A stretch of 64,000 bases of DNA from Capsaspora owczarzaki ATCC 30864 (lineage: Eukaryota; Opisthokonta; Filasterea). Shown here piece by piece: positions 56,468 through 63,838 of this stretch (its first letter is position 1; every line of letters starts with the position of its first letter). Below the pieces are notes generated by a model. It saw nothing but the letters and a program-made list of their open reading frames with translations, had not been told where the DNA came from and did not search any database. Both the position numbers and the translations under genes were made by a program. The stretch spans positions 1,492,690 through 1,556,689 of the forward strand of contig NW_011887292.1 in assembly GCF_000151315.2 (NCBI RefSeq), written 5' to 3'.

Positions 56468-58287
56468 ATGACCAAAGCTCATCTTCCGTCAGCGTTGGCC
56501 GCCGATGTCACTTTAGGACGACCGACCGAGTCGCCGACCCTCGTAGCAGCAGCAGCAGCAGCAGCAGCACCGATGGACGCGACGCTGCCTGTGACGGCTG
56601 CGCTCAAACCACTGACGGCGACGACCACGACGACGACGACGACGCAGCAGCCAGCTGCCCACCCCGCGCTGTGGACGGGCTTTTACAAGAAGACTGTGGA
56701 CGAGCGCCGCGATCTGCTTGCACTCGCCTTCCCGCGGGTCCCGCAGCCTGCATTCGATGGCCTGGACGAGACTGCTGCAGACAACATGGTCGAGAACTGC
56801 ATTGGGTATGCAATGCGCGTTATTGCAGCTCGTTCCCATGTGACTGCAATTCACACGGTTCTCAGAACCTGAGGGATTGTTGGACATGGTGGTTGATATG
56901 TCGTCACCACTCGACATGATTGCACCCTGATTGTGGCATTGATGTCAACACTCACACTCATCGACTCGACTAAACATGGCTGTGACCTCACACAGAACGA
57001 TCGGGCTGCCAGTTGGGTTAGGTGTGAACTTTGTCATGAACGGCCAACCCTTCGTCGTACCAATGGCAGTGGAAGAGCCGTCCGTCATTGCAGCCGTTTC
57101 CGGCGTCGCCAAGCTGCTCGCGGCGCATGGCGAGCCAAAGGGCTTTGTGGCGACTCACAGTGAGCGAAACATTGTGGTTGGCCAAGTCCAACTGCTGGAC
57201 ATTCCGGATATGGCAGCTGCCGAACAAGCAGTGAGTTCACCGCTTGCGTTTTGTTTGTATTGTGCATTGTGGCTTTTGTGGTGGTTTTCTTTGTTGAGAT
57301 GGACGATCGGCTGGATGGATGGCAACAACCTCATTTTTTTTTTTGTTGTGTTTGATCCGGCACAGATTGCTTTGGAGAAGGAACAGCTCATCGAGCTCGG
57401 CAACATGTTTTGCAAGAACATGGTCACCCGCGGTGGCGGTGTTTGCAACGTGACGTTTCGAAGAGTTTACTTGACCCCGCGAAGGCGAAACGGGAACGCA
57501 GTGGCTGTTTCTGTCGTTCCGGTCTGCTTGGTCGTTGAGATGCATGTGGACGTATGTGACTCGATGGGCGCCAACTGCGTCACCGGTGTGGCTGAAGGCG
57601 TTGCGCCAACGCTCGCGCGGCTGACCAACGGTCGGGTGGGCGTGCGCATTTTGTCCAACCTGACCATGGATCGGATAGCCACGGCCTCCTTCCGCATTCC
57701 AACCCGCGCCATGGCATACAAGGGCTACTCGGGTGAGAAGGTGGTGCAGTCCATGCTCGAACTGTACCAGTGGGCTGACAATGATCCCACTCGCGCCTGC
57801 ACCAACAACAAGGGCGTCATGAATGGGATTGACGCCGTTGCGCTCGCTACCGGGCAAGACTTTCGTGCGCTCGAGGCCGCTGCTCACGCCTATGTTGTGG
57901 CTCAGCACGGCCGCTACGCGCCTTTCAGTAAGAATTTGTCGCAACTTTTTGCCCACATCGGGCTTGTAAGCGAACCTAAGAACTAAAAGTGTTGTTTGCT
58001 TTCCGCTTGTGCAGCTGAATATTGGCTGGAAGATGACGGTGCAACGTTTTGTGGCCAGCTTTCCCTTCCAATGCCGGTGGGTGTGTTTGGTGGTCCCCTG
58101 CGCACCAATGCTGCCTACCAAAATGCGCTCCTGCTGCTGGGCAACCCGAGCGCCAAGACCCTAGCCATGGTGAGAAAGGGGGAGGCCTTGTTGTTTGACG
58201 GTGTCGCCATACGTGAACGTTGCTGAACGACATTGCTTTGTTCTCGCTCGCTCTCTCTCTCTCTCTCTCGCTCTCTCTCTCGCTTTC

Positions 58288-58372
<85 letters not shown>

Positions 58373-60261
58373 CACACACACACACACACACACCGCAGAT
58401 TCTGGTCTCGGTTGGTTTGTGCCAAAATTTCGCAGCCATGCGGGCATTGTCAACAGAAGGCATCCGTCGGGGTCATATGGCGCTGCATGCTCGTAACATT
58501 GCCATTGCCGCTGGAGCGCCCTCTCATGCTGTTCAAGAAGTGGTTGCCTTCATGATTGCCACCGACCGAATCACCGTGGTCGCGGCCTCCGAGTACCTCA
58601 AGGCGCATGCCATTCACGCAGAGCTCTTTCGAAGCGAAAAGGAGCGCCTGCAGCTCCTTTATCAGCACCAATTGGCGATGCCTGGGCTCCTGCTGCCCCA
58701 TGCTGACTCGTCAGCTGTTGAGACTGCTGTCAACGCGACGGGCAATCTCCCCAGCGGCAATGATGCCGTGGTTGCCCCGAGCACGTTCCTGTACGAGGAA
58801 GCATTCAGTTCCACAGTGCCAACGGCAGACGGCGCGCCGGGCAGCGCACGCATGACATTCAACGTTGCGTTCGAAACACTTGGCGACACCCCCGAGTATG
58901 TCGTTTTTGACCAAGATCGCGAAAACCCGCTGACCTTGGCGCTCTTTGGACGTCGTGGCCACTCCTGGCTCTCGGCAGTCATGCGTTCGCTCGACACGTT
59001 GCGCCTGCCCTCGCCTGGCCCGCCTCGCGCCAACTTGCACGTGGTCAAACGGCTCAAAACACTGTCCATCTTGATGAACATTCTCACTCGCCAGCTCATG
59101 ATTATCAATTCTGATGCCACCCGTCAAGTGCTCGGCCTTGTACTGGGAAGCAAGCGCAAGCATCGACTCCCGACCCACGCCAACGCTGAGGTACCCGCAT
59201 CGACGACTCTGCTTGCTCCACGCTCTGTCGATCCGGCGGCTGGGGTGCACAGCGGCATCTCGAAGGAGTCCCGCCCGACGTTGTCTCTTCAACTTGCAGG
59301 CGCATCTTCCGAACCCGCGGAAACGCGCGCACTCCTGCAAACCAATCCACGGCCGGCCCTGTCCAGCCCAAGCTTTGTGTCGTCGCCCGCCACGTTTGCT
59401 CATCCAAATTCCGACCATCCTCTTGAGCATGACGGGGCGACTGAGTCCGAGCGCGAACGCTCCTTGCATCTCGACACTGTCCGGGAGATTGTCAAGCTGC
59501 GCTCGCACGAGCTGCGAGTGGGACTTCCCCTTCTTTTGTCGCTTTGGCACGTGTTTGAGTATCGCGTGGAGCAAGCTGCTGGACCCGCGCGGGACTTTGC
59601 TCGGCTCATTCTTGACGAGCAGTCCCGCGTTCTTTCGTCCTTGATTGCCAATCCTGCTGCGACAACCGTTGGAGGTGATTTCTGCGCTGCCCAGTCTGAA
59701 TCTGGACCTTTGTCTGAGCGCTTGCTTGCAGAGAACAAGCGGGAGTACGACATTGAAGCACTCACCGACTTTCTGGGCACCCATGCCAAGCGCTTCCATG
59801 TCACCCTCTTCCTCCTCTGCGATGCTCTTGCCGACCACGAGTCGCGCTGGTCGCCGCCGCGTCTTGCTCGGCTTTGCCGTGTTGGGCGCTATCTCGAATG
59901 GCAAGGCGCCATCGTCCACGACATTGCACGCCACGACCGCGATCGCCACGATGGTACGCCCAACGCTCTTCTGTATTGGCTGCAATTGCCAACTCGAGAT
60001 CGTGCCTCCGCTTCGGGTACTGTGACGGATGATTTGGTGTCAGAGTTTGTGCGTGTCGCGCTGTTGACGTGCGCCGAGCAAACTGCAGACTTGTTCGACC
60101 AAGAGGAGGACAGTGATGTGAATGACAGCTCTGAGAATCCAGTCTTTACTCAGTCTTCGGTCCGCGAGGCATTGAACAATATTCGCACCCATTACGGCAA
60201 GGCGGAGCTGTTTGCGCGCGAACAACAGCATTTGCGGGAGGAACGCGCTGCGTCGAGCTAG
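56468..60261 (+). CDS. class II HMG-CoA reductase with long C-terminal extension
   Basis: Exons 56468-56805, 56996-57230, 57366-57927, 58015-58169 and 58399-60261, consistent phase, 1050 residues. After about 60 low-complexity residues comes a bacterial-type (degradative, MvaA-like) HMG-CoA reductase: [51 protein letters not shown] (catalytic Glu), [47 protein letters not shown] (catalytic Asp), [20 protein letters not shown] (catalytic Lys) and [20 protein letters not shown] (catalytic His). The fold ends near residue about 500. A further stretch to residue 1050 follows, with no motif I recognise in the last about 440 ([40 protein letters not shown]). There is no membrane anchor, unlike class I. 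Class II enzymes usually prefer NADH; direction in vivo is unknown. Confidence 0.92.
58291..58392. repeat. (CA)n microsatellite in an intron
   Basis: About 100 bp of nearly pure CA dinucleotide, preceded by a (CT)n stretch at 58250-58282. It fills the last intron of the HMG-CoA reductase gene almost to the acceptor at 58398. Confidence 0.97.
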
Positions 60262-60444: not shown

Positions 60445-61440
60445 TCACAAAACGAACGCTTTTGCTGAAGGGTTTAGCCCTTTGGTGGACTTTTGAGACT
60501 GGGGAGCAGCAGCAGTCGAGACGGCAGGAGTCGATGTCTTGTAGCTGTAGTAATCGTCGTCGTCGTCCGCGGAATTCACCACATGTGCTGGCTGAACAGG
60601 AGTCGCGACGACTGGTGCTGGGGCTGGGACTGCAGCTGGTGCCGGGGCGGAATGCTGCTGTGGAGCGGCGCGGTGAGCGGGAGCGGGAGCAGAGTGATGC
60701 TTCGGACGTTGCTGCGCTTGCTGAGGAGCAGGGTCGCTGCTGCGATAGCTGTAGTAGTCGTCGTCATTGCCATCAGAATTATCATTGGCTGCGACCTGGC
60801 CGGGAGCTTGAGTGTACACGGGCGCTGGGCCGTAATCTTGCGGCGCAAACTGCGGATACTGGCCGTACTGCGGGAACTGCTGTGCGTACTGTGCGTACTG
60901 GGCATACTGGGCGTACTGGGCGTACTGGGCGTACTGCTGCTCCTGCATGTACTGCTGCGGCGGCATTCCGTACATTTGTCCCTGTTGTTGGTTGGACCAC
61001 TGGTTGTTGTTCCAGTCCGGGTTGGGCGGTTGGTACCAGGCAGAATCTGAGGGGTAGAGCGACGCATCGTCGCCGTAGAACGCCACCTCTTCCTCTGCAT
61101 GCAACTCTGCAAAGCATTGCTCAATCAGGCGTTGCTCGTCGTCGTCGGGAGCGGCCGTGGAGAGCGTCCTGGCCAGCTGAGCCTTCGAGGCGCTCGAATT
61201 CGAGGTCGCTGCGGCAGCGCTGCTTTGTTGCGTCTTCGGGGCGGGTCCAGCCGCGTTCGAAGGGGCGGGCGCTTGCTTGCTTGACATGCTTGGAGCAGCA
61301 GCAGCAGCAGCAGCAGCAGAGTCGTGCGTGGGGTCTTGCTGGGCGTCCTCAGAGTCGAGCTGCCGAAGAAAGTCCTGTTCAAAGCCCTGCTCGTCCATCA
61401 TCCACAGGAACTCTTCGAAATTTGGTTGTTGGCTTGCCAT
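60445..61440 (-). CDS. PAIP2-like poly(A)-binding-protein partner
   Basis: Single exon, 331 residues. The C-terminus is STKGLNPSAKAFVL, a good PAM2 motif (consensus LNPxAxxFxP-like), which binds the MLLE domain of cytoplasmic poly(A)-binding protein. The N-terminus NFEEFLWMMDEQGFEQDFLR and a segment near residue 105 (QRLIEQCFAELHAEEEV) resemble the PAM1 region of human PAIP2, which contacts PABP RRMs. Between them are a Tyr/Gln/Ala-rich YAQ repeat and two DDD(D)YYSY(R/K) boxes. PAIP2 represses translation by displacing PABP from poly(A); this protein is over twice its length. The function is inferred from motif pairing. Confidence 0.75.
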   Translation of the reverse strand: MASQQPNFEEFLWMMDEQGFEQDFLRQLDSEDAQQDPTHDSAAAAAAAAPSMSSKQAPAPSNAAGPAPKTQQSSAAAATSNSSASKAQLARTLSTAAPDDDEQRLIEQCFAELHAEEEVAFYGDDASLYPSDSAWYQPPNPDWNNNQWSNQQQGQMYGMPPQQYMQEQQYAQYAQYAQYAQYAQYAQQFPQYGQYPQFAPQDYGPAPVYTQAPGQVAANDNSDGNDDDYYSYRSSDPAPQQAQQRPKHHSAPAPAHRAAPQQHSAPAPAAVPAPAPVVATPVQPAHVVNSADDDDDYYSYKTSTPAVSTAAAPQSQKSTKGLNPSAKAFVL

Positions 61441-61893
61441 GGTGTAGGGTTGGGTTTTGTTTGGTTTTGTTTGTGATGCCTTGGTTGTGGGTTAGGAGGG
61501 ACAAGCAGAGAAAAGGAAAAGAGAGGAAAAAGAAAAGAAAAAGAAAAAAAAAAAAAGAGAGACTGAGACTTGCATTGTGAAAAAAAAAATGTGATGAATT
61601 GTGCTTGTTCTGTTACTGTGTGGCTTTGTTTCAAACCCAGCACCACTCCACCAGGCTCACCAGGCTCACACAGCCAGACGAAATAAGGGTGAAGCTGCAC
61701 CGGATTATCGCTCAAGTTCCTGCGCTTTCTGCGATTTTCTGCGATTTTCTGCGGATTGGCTTCTGTACTTGGCTTTCAACGCCTGGACAAGTTCAGTGCT
61801 ATGCGTTGCTCAGAGCAACGACAAGGATCGGGACAAAAAAGGAACCACAGTCCAATGAAAACAACACACAGCTCAAGATTCAGCCAGTCAGCA
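61441..61893. other. intergenic region
   Basis: 453 bp between the start of the PAIP2-like gene and the stop of ACMSD, both minus strand. It holds an A/G-rich purine tract at 61495-61562 directly upstream of the PAIP2-like ATG. No supported gene. Confidence 0.6.
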
Positions 61894-63838
61894 TCAGCAA
61901 GCGCGATTGGCAGCAAACTGCTCGACATTCAAGCCCAGAAACTCGAGCGCATTCAATCCAAGTAGCCGACGCTTCACGTGGTCATCGAAATCGGGAATGC
62001 TTTCAATCAGCTTCCCAGGCTCAAGCTCGCCTAGAGGGAAGGGATAGTCCGTGCCAAGCGCAACCTTGTCCACGCCAATCAGCTTGACCAAATACCGCAG
62101 GGCATTGGCGTCGTGCACGAGACTGTCGACCCAAAAGCGCCCAACATACGAGATCGGTGGCACTGGAGGGGAAGAAAGAGGAGCAGGAGTACGCAAAAAA
62201 AAAAAAAAAACAGTCAGAACAATCAACAGGAACAGGAAACCCCATCTTTCCTCGACTGCAGTACTCTCGCCTCACGCACGCACACAGGTCATGCAATCCA
62301 AGACATACCGTTGTTTGTGGTGGCGCAGATATCAGGCCGTGCATCGAAACCATGTTGAATCCTGCCAACAGTGAAAGGAAACGAGCCGCCGCCATGGGCA
62401 AAGCAGACCTATCAAAGTCAGACGGCCATGCATTCAAGCACCACAGGTGTCGAGTTAGGCTGCAGGTGTTTGGCGGAAGGGGTGACAACGAAGCAAGCGC
62501 ATTGCAAATCTCGCCAAACCTTCAATCGCGGGAACTGCTCAAACACGCCGCCGAAAATCATGCTGCAAATGGCAACGGTAGTTTCTGTAGGCATGCCAAT
62601 CAGCCATGGGAACCAGTACTTGGACATGCGGCCTCCAGTCTCCATGTCCCAGGGGTGCACAAAAATTGCCGCGCCGAGTTCCTCAGCAGCCTGAACACGG
62701 GTCGAGCGAGCAAAGTAAAACCGGTACGTGAGTGTGCATCCACAAAGTTAGAGTGTGATGTTCAAAACAAGGGGGTGGGGGTGCAACGGTTATCAAGTTG
62801 GAAATCAGCTGTGGCGCTTTACCGCAAAAAAGGGACGCAACTCGGCAGCGTCCAGGTTCCAGTCATTCACATGTGAGCCGATTTGGACTCCGGCAAGCTT
62901 GAGATCTACCATGCAGCGACGGAGCTCCTTGATTGCCATTTCTGAGTTTTGCAGCGGCACCGTGCCAAGGCCGACAAAGCGAGTTGGGTTTTTGGAGACT
63001 TGCTGCAAAACCAAACAAAAACGTTCGTTGAGGGATTTGTTCGTCCGCCCAGCACCTCTCAAGCGACCGGTGTGCATAATGGCATGTAGACCTTTTCTTG
63101 CAAATCCGAATCACCCATCCATCTCATGCTCACGGCACGCAATAGGACCATCCACACACAAAAAAAAAAAAAATACACCCAACTCACCTTGGCAATATCG
63201 TCGTTGAGGAAGACGGCCAGGTCCAAGGCATCCTCGGGCTTGGCCCAGTAGCTGAACATGACGGGGATGGTCGACAGGACTTGGACGTCGACGTCGTGGC
63301 CATCACACTCGCCGAGCCGCGTGGAGGCGCACCAGCAGTTGGACTCAATCACCCGGAAGGTCGTTCCGTCCTTCATCATGCGCGCCTTGCCCTGGGACCG
63401 ACGAGGACGATGATGACGATGACAATGATGACGATGATGATGACGGTTCATGCAAAAGCAGAGCAAAGCACGCGAGACGGGTGAGGATTGTTGACAATGG
63501 TCAAAATTGGAGCGACGGCAAGTAAACCACGAGTCACTCAAAAGTCACACGAAGAAGGACGAAGCGGTGGCCATGCCAATGGCGTGGCAATGCATGTGTG
63601 GGGTGCATGGATAGTGCACGGCGGGTCTGCGCAGTCGGGCGGTGCGCGCGGTGCAGCGTTCACATGGCTAGCTGTCGGCAATTCAATTCGTTGGTTCTTT
63701 GCTCTTCCAAGTAAGTCGATGTACCTTCTCAAAGTGGTCGAGAGACACCCAGCCGCCGTAGCCGTACTTTTCCTTGAGATCGGGCCATGTTTCGGGCAGA
63801 ATGTGTGTGTGGATGTCGACTTTGAGGGGACGGCTCAT
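61894..63838 (-). CDS. ACMSD: 2-amino-3-carboxymuconate-6-semialdehyde decarboxylase
   Basis: Exons 63838-63725, 63391-63188, 63002-62823, 62690-62520, 62408-62309 and 62162-61894 give 345 residues in consistent phase. The metal site starts VDIHTHILPETWPDL (HxH). Family blocks: YGYGGWVSLDH, TIPVMFSYWAKPEDALDL, RFVGLGTVPLQ, GVQIGSHVNDWNLD, IFVHPWDMETGGRMSKYWFP (metal His), VCFAHGGGSFPFTVGRIQHG (His) and VALGTDYPFPLGELEPGKLI (Asp). The enzyme decarboxylates ACMS in tryptophan/kynurenine breakdown, diverting carbon away from quinolinate and NAD synthesis. One donor (aag|gtttgg at 62519) is weak. Near-complete colinearity with the animal enzyme makes the call firm. Confidence 0.96.

Follow-up and report, generated by a model that had tools for sequence, protein, structure and literature searches.

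Sterol and isoprenoid synthesis is controlled at HMG-CoA reductase, which is also the target of the statins. Among the described systems close to the one presented here are the eukaryotic class II enzymes of PMC4784904, the accessible part of which reports that every demosponge examined has two HMGR genes, one of them clustering with prokaryotic sequences, that Capsaspora owczarzaki has both classes of the enzyme and that some fungi have class II genes, and suggests a transfer of class II into the opisthokont ancestor followed by later loss. Because of this report a class II enzyme is no novelty among these lineages, and the claim of an earlier sequence-only reading of the locus, that class II is mainly bacterial and archaeal, is too strict. 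The C. owczarzaki gene analysed here shares with those genes a eukaryotic setting in which class II stands beside class I; it carries a long C-terminal extension, of which the accessible part of PMC4784904 makes no mention.

The bacterial class II enzymes (P. mevalonii, 1qax; 6dio; S. pneumoniae, 5wpj) have in common with this protein the catalytic domain and its catalytic residues, the lack of a membrane domain and the GHMALHARN flap region, and are 39–46% identical to it in a five-row alignment. By comparison with them, the four introns, the low-complexity N-terminus and the extension of about 545 residues are found only in this gene, and its protein has an insertion of 12–14 residues after TPR. 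Eukaryotic class I enzymes (the organism's own gene on contig C8; human 8pkn) belong to the same superfamily and to the same Pfam family, PF00368, but differ in having a membrane domain and class I motifs, and stand on the opposite side of the tree at 100/100.

Gene structure and catalytic domain

The gene occupies C1:1549157-1552950. The contig measures 3.79 Mb, the genome 27.46 Mb in 29 contigs, and the features of the gene are listed in Table 1 in the coordinates of the window, by which we mean the whole stretch of 64,000 nucleotides that was analysed. The CDS is 3153 nt long and encodes 1050 residues and a stop. Four introns had been proposed from the letters of the DNA, and all four are GT-AG, with splice sites inferred from homology and the open frame.

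Table 1. Features of the class II reductase gene and its surroundings (positions in the window)
Feature	Position	Strand	Description
Class II HMG-CoA reductase gene	56468-60261	+	5 exons, 4 GT-AG introns, 1050-residue product
Exon 1	56468..56805	+	start codon, low-complexity N-terminus of about 62 residues (Ala, Thr runs), reductase domain begins
Intron 1	56806..56995	+	190 nt, phase 2, GT-AG
Exon 2	56996..57230	+	reductase; VEEPSV with Glu140 (= P. mevalonii Glu83)
Intron 2	57231..57365	+	135 nt, phase 0, GT-AG
Exon 3	57366..57927	+	reductase; cofactor helix CKNMVTR (aa 207-213), Lys340 motif, Asp356
Intron 3	57928..58014	+	87 nt, phase 1, GT-AG
Exon 4	58015..58169	+	reductase
Intron 4	58170..58398	+	229 nt, phase 0, GT-AG; CT and CA microsatellites
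CT/CA microsatellite runs	58261-58395		fill most of intron 4, right before its AG
Exon 5, whole	58399-60261	+	reductase end, then C-terminal extension, stop
Exon 5, first part	58399..58623	+	reductase end: GHMALHARN, His456 (= P. mevalonii His381), C-terminal flap region
Exon 5, second part	58624..60258	+	C-terminal extension, aa 506-1050
Repeat-containing open frame	60448-61491	-	348 residues; tandem YAQ-type repeats, two DDDYYSYKTS-like stretches; no Pfam family matched
Amidohydrolase	61897-63110	-	PF04909; at least 3 exons

The genes around the reductase include a serine carboxypeptidase on the minus strand (PF00450, 7.2e-57) and the amidohydrolase, which lies in three open pieces, two of them above the cut-off, and which by eye we take to resemble aminocarboxymuconate-semialdehyde decarboxylase. 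G+C across the window ranges from 0.49 to 0.59 in 4 kb blocks. Two 90-base targeting arms for the Capsaspora coYki gene, taken from PMC9170242, have no match in the genome, in which a 90-base control stretch from the window is found; the arms derive from a single gene, and the lack of one contig would also account for this result. Most class II enzymes are bacterial, and a bacterial contaminant or a mis-joined gene might therefore be suspected here; however, the gene has four spliceosomal-type introns, its neighbours are eukaryotic with split frames, and its position inside a 3.79 Mb contig excludes a stray bacterial contig, so that we regard such an origin as extremely improbable.

The assignment to class II, proposed in the sequence-only reading, is borne out by several comparisons. 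The protein matches PF00368 over aa 77-461 (1.3e-90, Pfam) and the class II model TIGR00532 of NCBIfam over aa 70-461 with 281.3 bits against a curated cut-off of 259.95, and scores far under the cut-off with the class I models (TIGR00533, 23.9 bits against 441.8; TIGR00920, 17.2 bits). Eleven distinct PDB sequences match at E <= 0.001, and the closest solved structures are class II enzymes, 6dio (2.6e-84) and 1qax (1.4e-83). In a tree of 38 rows (6 class I and 32 class II) the classes split at 100/100 with the gene on the class II side and not inside class I, the branch connecting the two classes being saturated (length 5 on each side). We judged the question of class on this tree in place of a 123-row tree, which had lost four class I rows to a length filter and in which the two class I sequences of this genome were poorly aligned (branches of 10).

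The MvaA-like catalytic motifs anticipated earlier are all present in the translation. Equivalents of the catalytic P. mevalonii residues Glu83, Lys267, Asp283 and His381 are retained as Glu140, Lys340, Asp356 and His456, and these four columns are invariant across 121 aligned class II rows. Hydropathy and translation likewise agree with the expectation that there is no membrane domain: only some 62 residues of low complexity lie ahead of the catalytic part, and the 19-residue stretch of highest hydrophobicity (Kyte-Doolittle mean 1.98, from aa 237) falls within the catalytic domain. The conclusion that the predicted product is a soluble class II HMG-CoA reductase holds.

Cofactor helix and prokaryotic relatives

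The accessible part of PMC13370337 gives the motif Dx(V/L)xxxL for NADH-using class II enzymes and (H/Y)xSxxxR for NADPH-using ones, and describes a third, 'undefined' group that includes a promiscuous enzyme. The cofactor helix of this protein departs from both motifs. Compared with the NADH motif it has Cys for Asp, Asn for Val/Leu and Arg for Leu, and of the NADPH motif only the Arg is matched, with Cys207 and Asn209 occupying the places of His/Tyr and Ser. Among the 121 aligned class II rows the NADH motif is present in 28 and the full NADPH motif in 10; the rest have the final Arg only (54, this gene included), the final Leu only (16) or neither (13). In the 38-row tree the final Arg occurs in 17 of the 17 other rows of the 18-row set to which the gene belongs, and is absent from all 14 class II rows beyond that set. 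The helix leans to NADPH and to mevalonate synthesis, without the full motif, and the preference is a predicted one. Because Cys207 and Asn209 depart from the NADPH motif, and because the 'undefined' group in the accessible part of PMC13370337 contains a promiscuous enzyme, cofactor use may be mixed.

It had also been suggested that the enzyme could mean mevalonate catabolism, and the absence of an NADH-type cofactor helix disfavours this. If the enzyme ran mostly as an oxidase of mevalonate, like that of P. mevalonii, it would convert mevalonate and NAD+ to HMG-CoA, for use of mevalonate as food. The best NCBIfam model carries the name 'degradative', and the P. mevalonii enzyme is among the two closest solved structures. 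However, TIGR00532 covers class II generally and its name is therefore weak evidence; the helix lacks both the Asp and the Leu of the NADH enzymes, unlike the 28 rows that carry their motif; and the tree sets the gene apart from the P. mevalonii group, although grouping the two is not rejected (p-AU 0.24). We consider a mainly oxidative role quite improbable.

A scan of GTDB contigs returned at least 588 stretches matching the search pattern, at least 585 of which were confirmed, and the best 80 loci were kept. The top matches among these best 80 of at least 585 are from Myxococcota, Deltaproteobacteria and Chloroflexi, at 41–46% identity, and in the best-hit phylum a relative (E <= 1e-20) is present in 138 of 188 genomes. 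The 38-row tree puts the gene into a set of 18 class II rows on a starred branch (97/99), together with Myxococcota, Bacillota and a group of kinase-fused enzymes described below, and separates it from Chloroflexota, archaea and the group of P. mevalonii; within the set the gene is placed in a 16-row fork lacking resolved order. A tree of 81 of the 121 class II rows (40 were dropped, three of them long or odd branches) joins it to eight Myxococcota-type rows at 94/86, and in the 123-row tree Myxococcota are nearest too (aLRT 83), the branch being unstarred in both.

Four rival placements of the gene were tested and none is rejected: p-AU is 0.24 for a grouping with NADH-type Pseudomonadota, 0.248 for archaea, 0.0769 for Bacillota and 0.073 for the kinase-fused group. 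Its end branch is long, from 1.55 to 2.4, and could also mean relaxed or altered function. It is likely, judging from the position of the gene among bacterial enzymes in the trees, that it is an old acquisition from a prokaryote; the lateral transfer proposed in the sequence-only reading is to that extent upheld, while the trees, with an end branch of 2.4 in the 81-row tree, name no donor.

The C-terminal extension

Aligned with this protein, bacterial relatives stop near aa 500-517, shortly past the flap region, and the extension is therefore about 535–550 residues long; we take it as aa 506-1050. The earlier description of a long C-terminal extension in frame with the reductase is confirmed as far as aa 1050. 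Exon 5 is a single open frame with 620 codons to the stop, and each of the other five frames has 3 to 20 stops. G+C at second codon positions is low in the reductase (0.449) and equally so in four of five extension segments (0.427–0.463), a signal that marks these four as coding. The codon-position signal is broken at aa 691-790, where second-position G+C is 0.590, and aa 681-790 are low-complexity-like; the sequence on either side, at about aa 560-680 and 780-1050, has a globular look. AlphaFold2 run from the single sequence places helices at about aa 617-679 and 779-1049 with coil between them, at a pLDDT of 36.8, a confidence so low that this layout proves nothing.

The extension could be a non-folded, fast-evolving and largely disordered tail that arose by read-through into downstream sequence. 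The low-complexity stretch with its lost codon signal would be accounted for in this way, as would the absence of any relative among the sequences searched and the pLDDT of the single-sequence model. However, the other four segments carry a reductase-like codon-position signal within a 620-codon open frame, two stretches look globular, and AlphaFold2 from a single sequence often fails for real domains. Such an origin seems to us unlikely.

Searches with the extension gave no relative. Against PDB sequences phmmer found just weak, biased matches (the best, 0.0071, to an engineered protein); in Pfam the only match was MFS18, at 0.56, and no NCBIfam model gave a meaningful score, so that the HMM searches suggested by the sequence-only reading returned no match. 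Within its own genome the extension matches nothing but itself, the viral contigs gave no match, and tblastn against the 80 fetched bacterial and archaeal loci gave E 6.9 or worse. By eye, aa 905-945 can be read as terpenoid-synthase-like; the spacing between its two Asp-rich pieces is far too short and nothing supports this reading, which we rejected. No mention of a eukaryotic class II enzyme with a C-terminal extension was found in the accessible parts of the open-licence literature searched, and the extension is the part of the gene that looks new.

Long C-terminal partners in one frame with the reductase do occur among the bacterial relatives. Of the 80 fetched class II loci (the best 80 of at least 585), 15 have a tail of 303–355 residues (L015, L017, L027, L032, L036, L037, L042, L052, L055, L057, L058, L066, L068, L074 and L075), which by eye looks like a GHMP (mevalonate-kinase-like) kinase; Pfam was positive for both of the two tails, of the 15, that were run. 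Between 13 and 15 of these loci cluster in the trees (100/100 in the 81-row tree), in a group that spans Pseudomonadota, Calditrichota, Planctomycetota and Actinomycetota. L063, from a Myxococcota MAG, has a 1579-residue frame starting from position 1119 of the locus, in which a class II reductase is followed by sequence that by eye is prenyl-synthase-like and possibly also squalene/phytoene-synthase-like. In the remaining loci of the 80 the tail is at most 65 residues.

These fusions to kinases and prenyl synthases raise the question whether the extension, too, is an additional enzyme domain that works on the product or further along the isoprenoid pathway. The bacterial GHMP kinase fusions (L015, L074 and the 13 others) resemble this gene in architecture, and differ from it in that their partner has no similarity to the extension. 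Neither Pfam nor a profile of the 15 kinase tails finds a kinase in the extension (full-sequence score of -1.6 with hmmsearch --max; probability of 0.9% with hhalign), and no Pfam, NCBIfam or PDB entry reaches a meaningful score. Notwithstanding the precedent offered by the 15 loci and by L063, we give a second enzyme a low probability.

We base a possible regulatory or docking role on the position of the extension behind the flap and on the lack of any enzyme signature. The extension joins directly on to the C-terminal flap, a mobile element that covers the active site on closing, and our tentative proposal is that it is not a second enzyme but a helical domain controlling how the flap closes, how the enzyme assembles or where it is placed.

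Three reductases in one genome

PF00368 matches three genes in the genome: the class II gene on C1 and one each on C8 and C11. The sequence-only reading had recommended a search for a class I gene, and the gene on C8 (about 292-296 kb) is one, animal-like in character. Its main exon matches TIGR00920 in two stretches with 524.3 bits, below the cut-off of 778 when this one exon alone is scored, and in the 38-row tree the human row is its sister (98/99; 64% identity over 209 columns). Residues 92-243 match the NPC1 model TIGR00917 with 42.5 bits, which we take to reflect a sterol-sensing domain.

The third gene, on C11 at about 131400-135400 (L008:1122-3437, minus strand), has a class I-type catalytic domain fused in frame to a phosphotransferase-like (kinase-like) domain, which scores above the cut-off with both APH (6.1e-12) and EcKL (1.1e-10). 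In the 38-row tree its partner is a bacterial class I row (95/79); both are long branches and the join may be false. The mevalonate kinase model TIGR00549 matches pieces of the genome with scores short of its cut-off (102.7 at best, against 163.05), and it also matches in 13 of 14 control genomes.

We think it probable, on balance, that an ancestor of this eukaryote acquired a prokaryotic gene for a soluble class II HMG-CoA reductase, and that the gene later gained introns and a C-terminal extension of about 545 residues, giving a cytosolic, NADPH-leaning second reductase. The enzyme would reduce HMG-CoA to mevalonate in the cytosol, with a leaning to NADPH, and would be free of the membrane domain through which the class I enzyme is controlled. 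More speculatively, the extension may be an undescribed helical domain that makes the captured bacterial reductase a separately regulated, membrane-free source of mevalonate, in an organism with three evolutionarily distinct HMGRs, each with its own partner domain.

The presence of this gene contradicts the claim, in the accessible part of the 2026 preprint PMC13370337, that only bacteria and archaea have class II, and it bears on the proposal in the accessible part of PMC4784904 that class II entered the opisthokont ancestor. A class II enzyme, a class I enzyme and a reductase-kinase fusion in one eukaryote allow one to ask how the pathway is divided among membrane-controlled and soluble enzymes. 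The main interest lies in the extension together with three unlike reductases in one genome, and the gene raises the question whether a captured bacterial enzyme has been put under eukaryotic control by way of a new domain.
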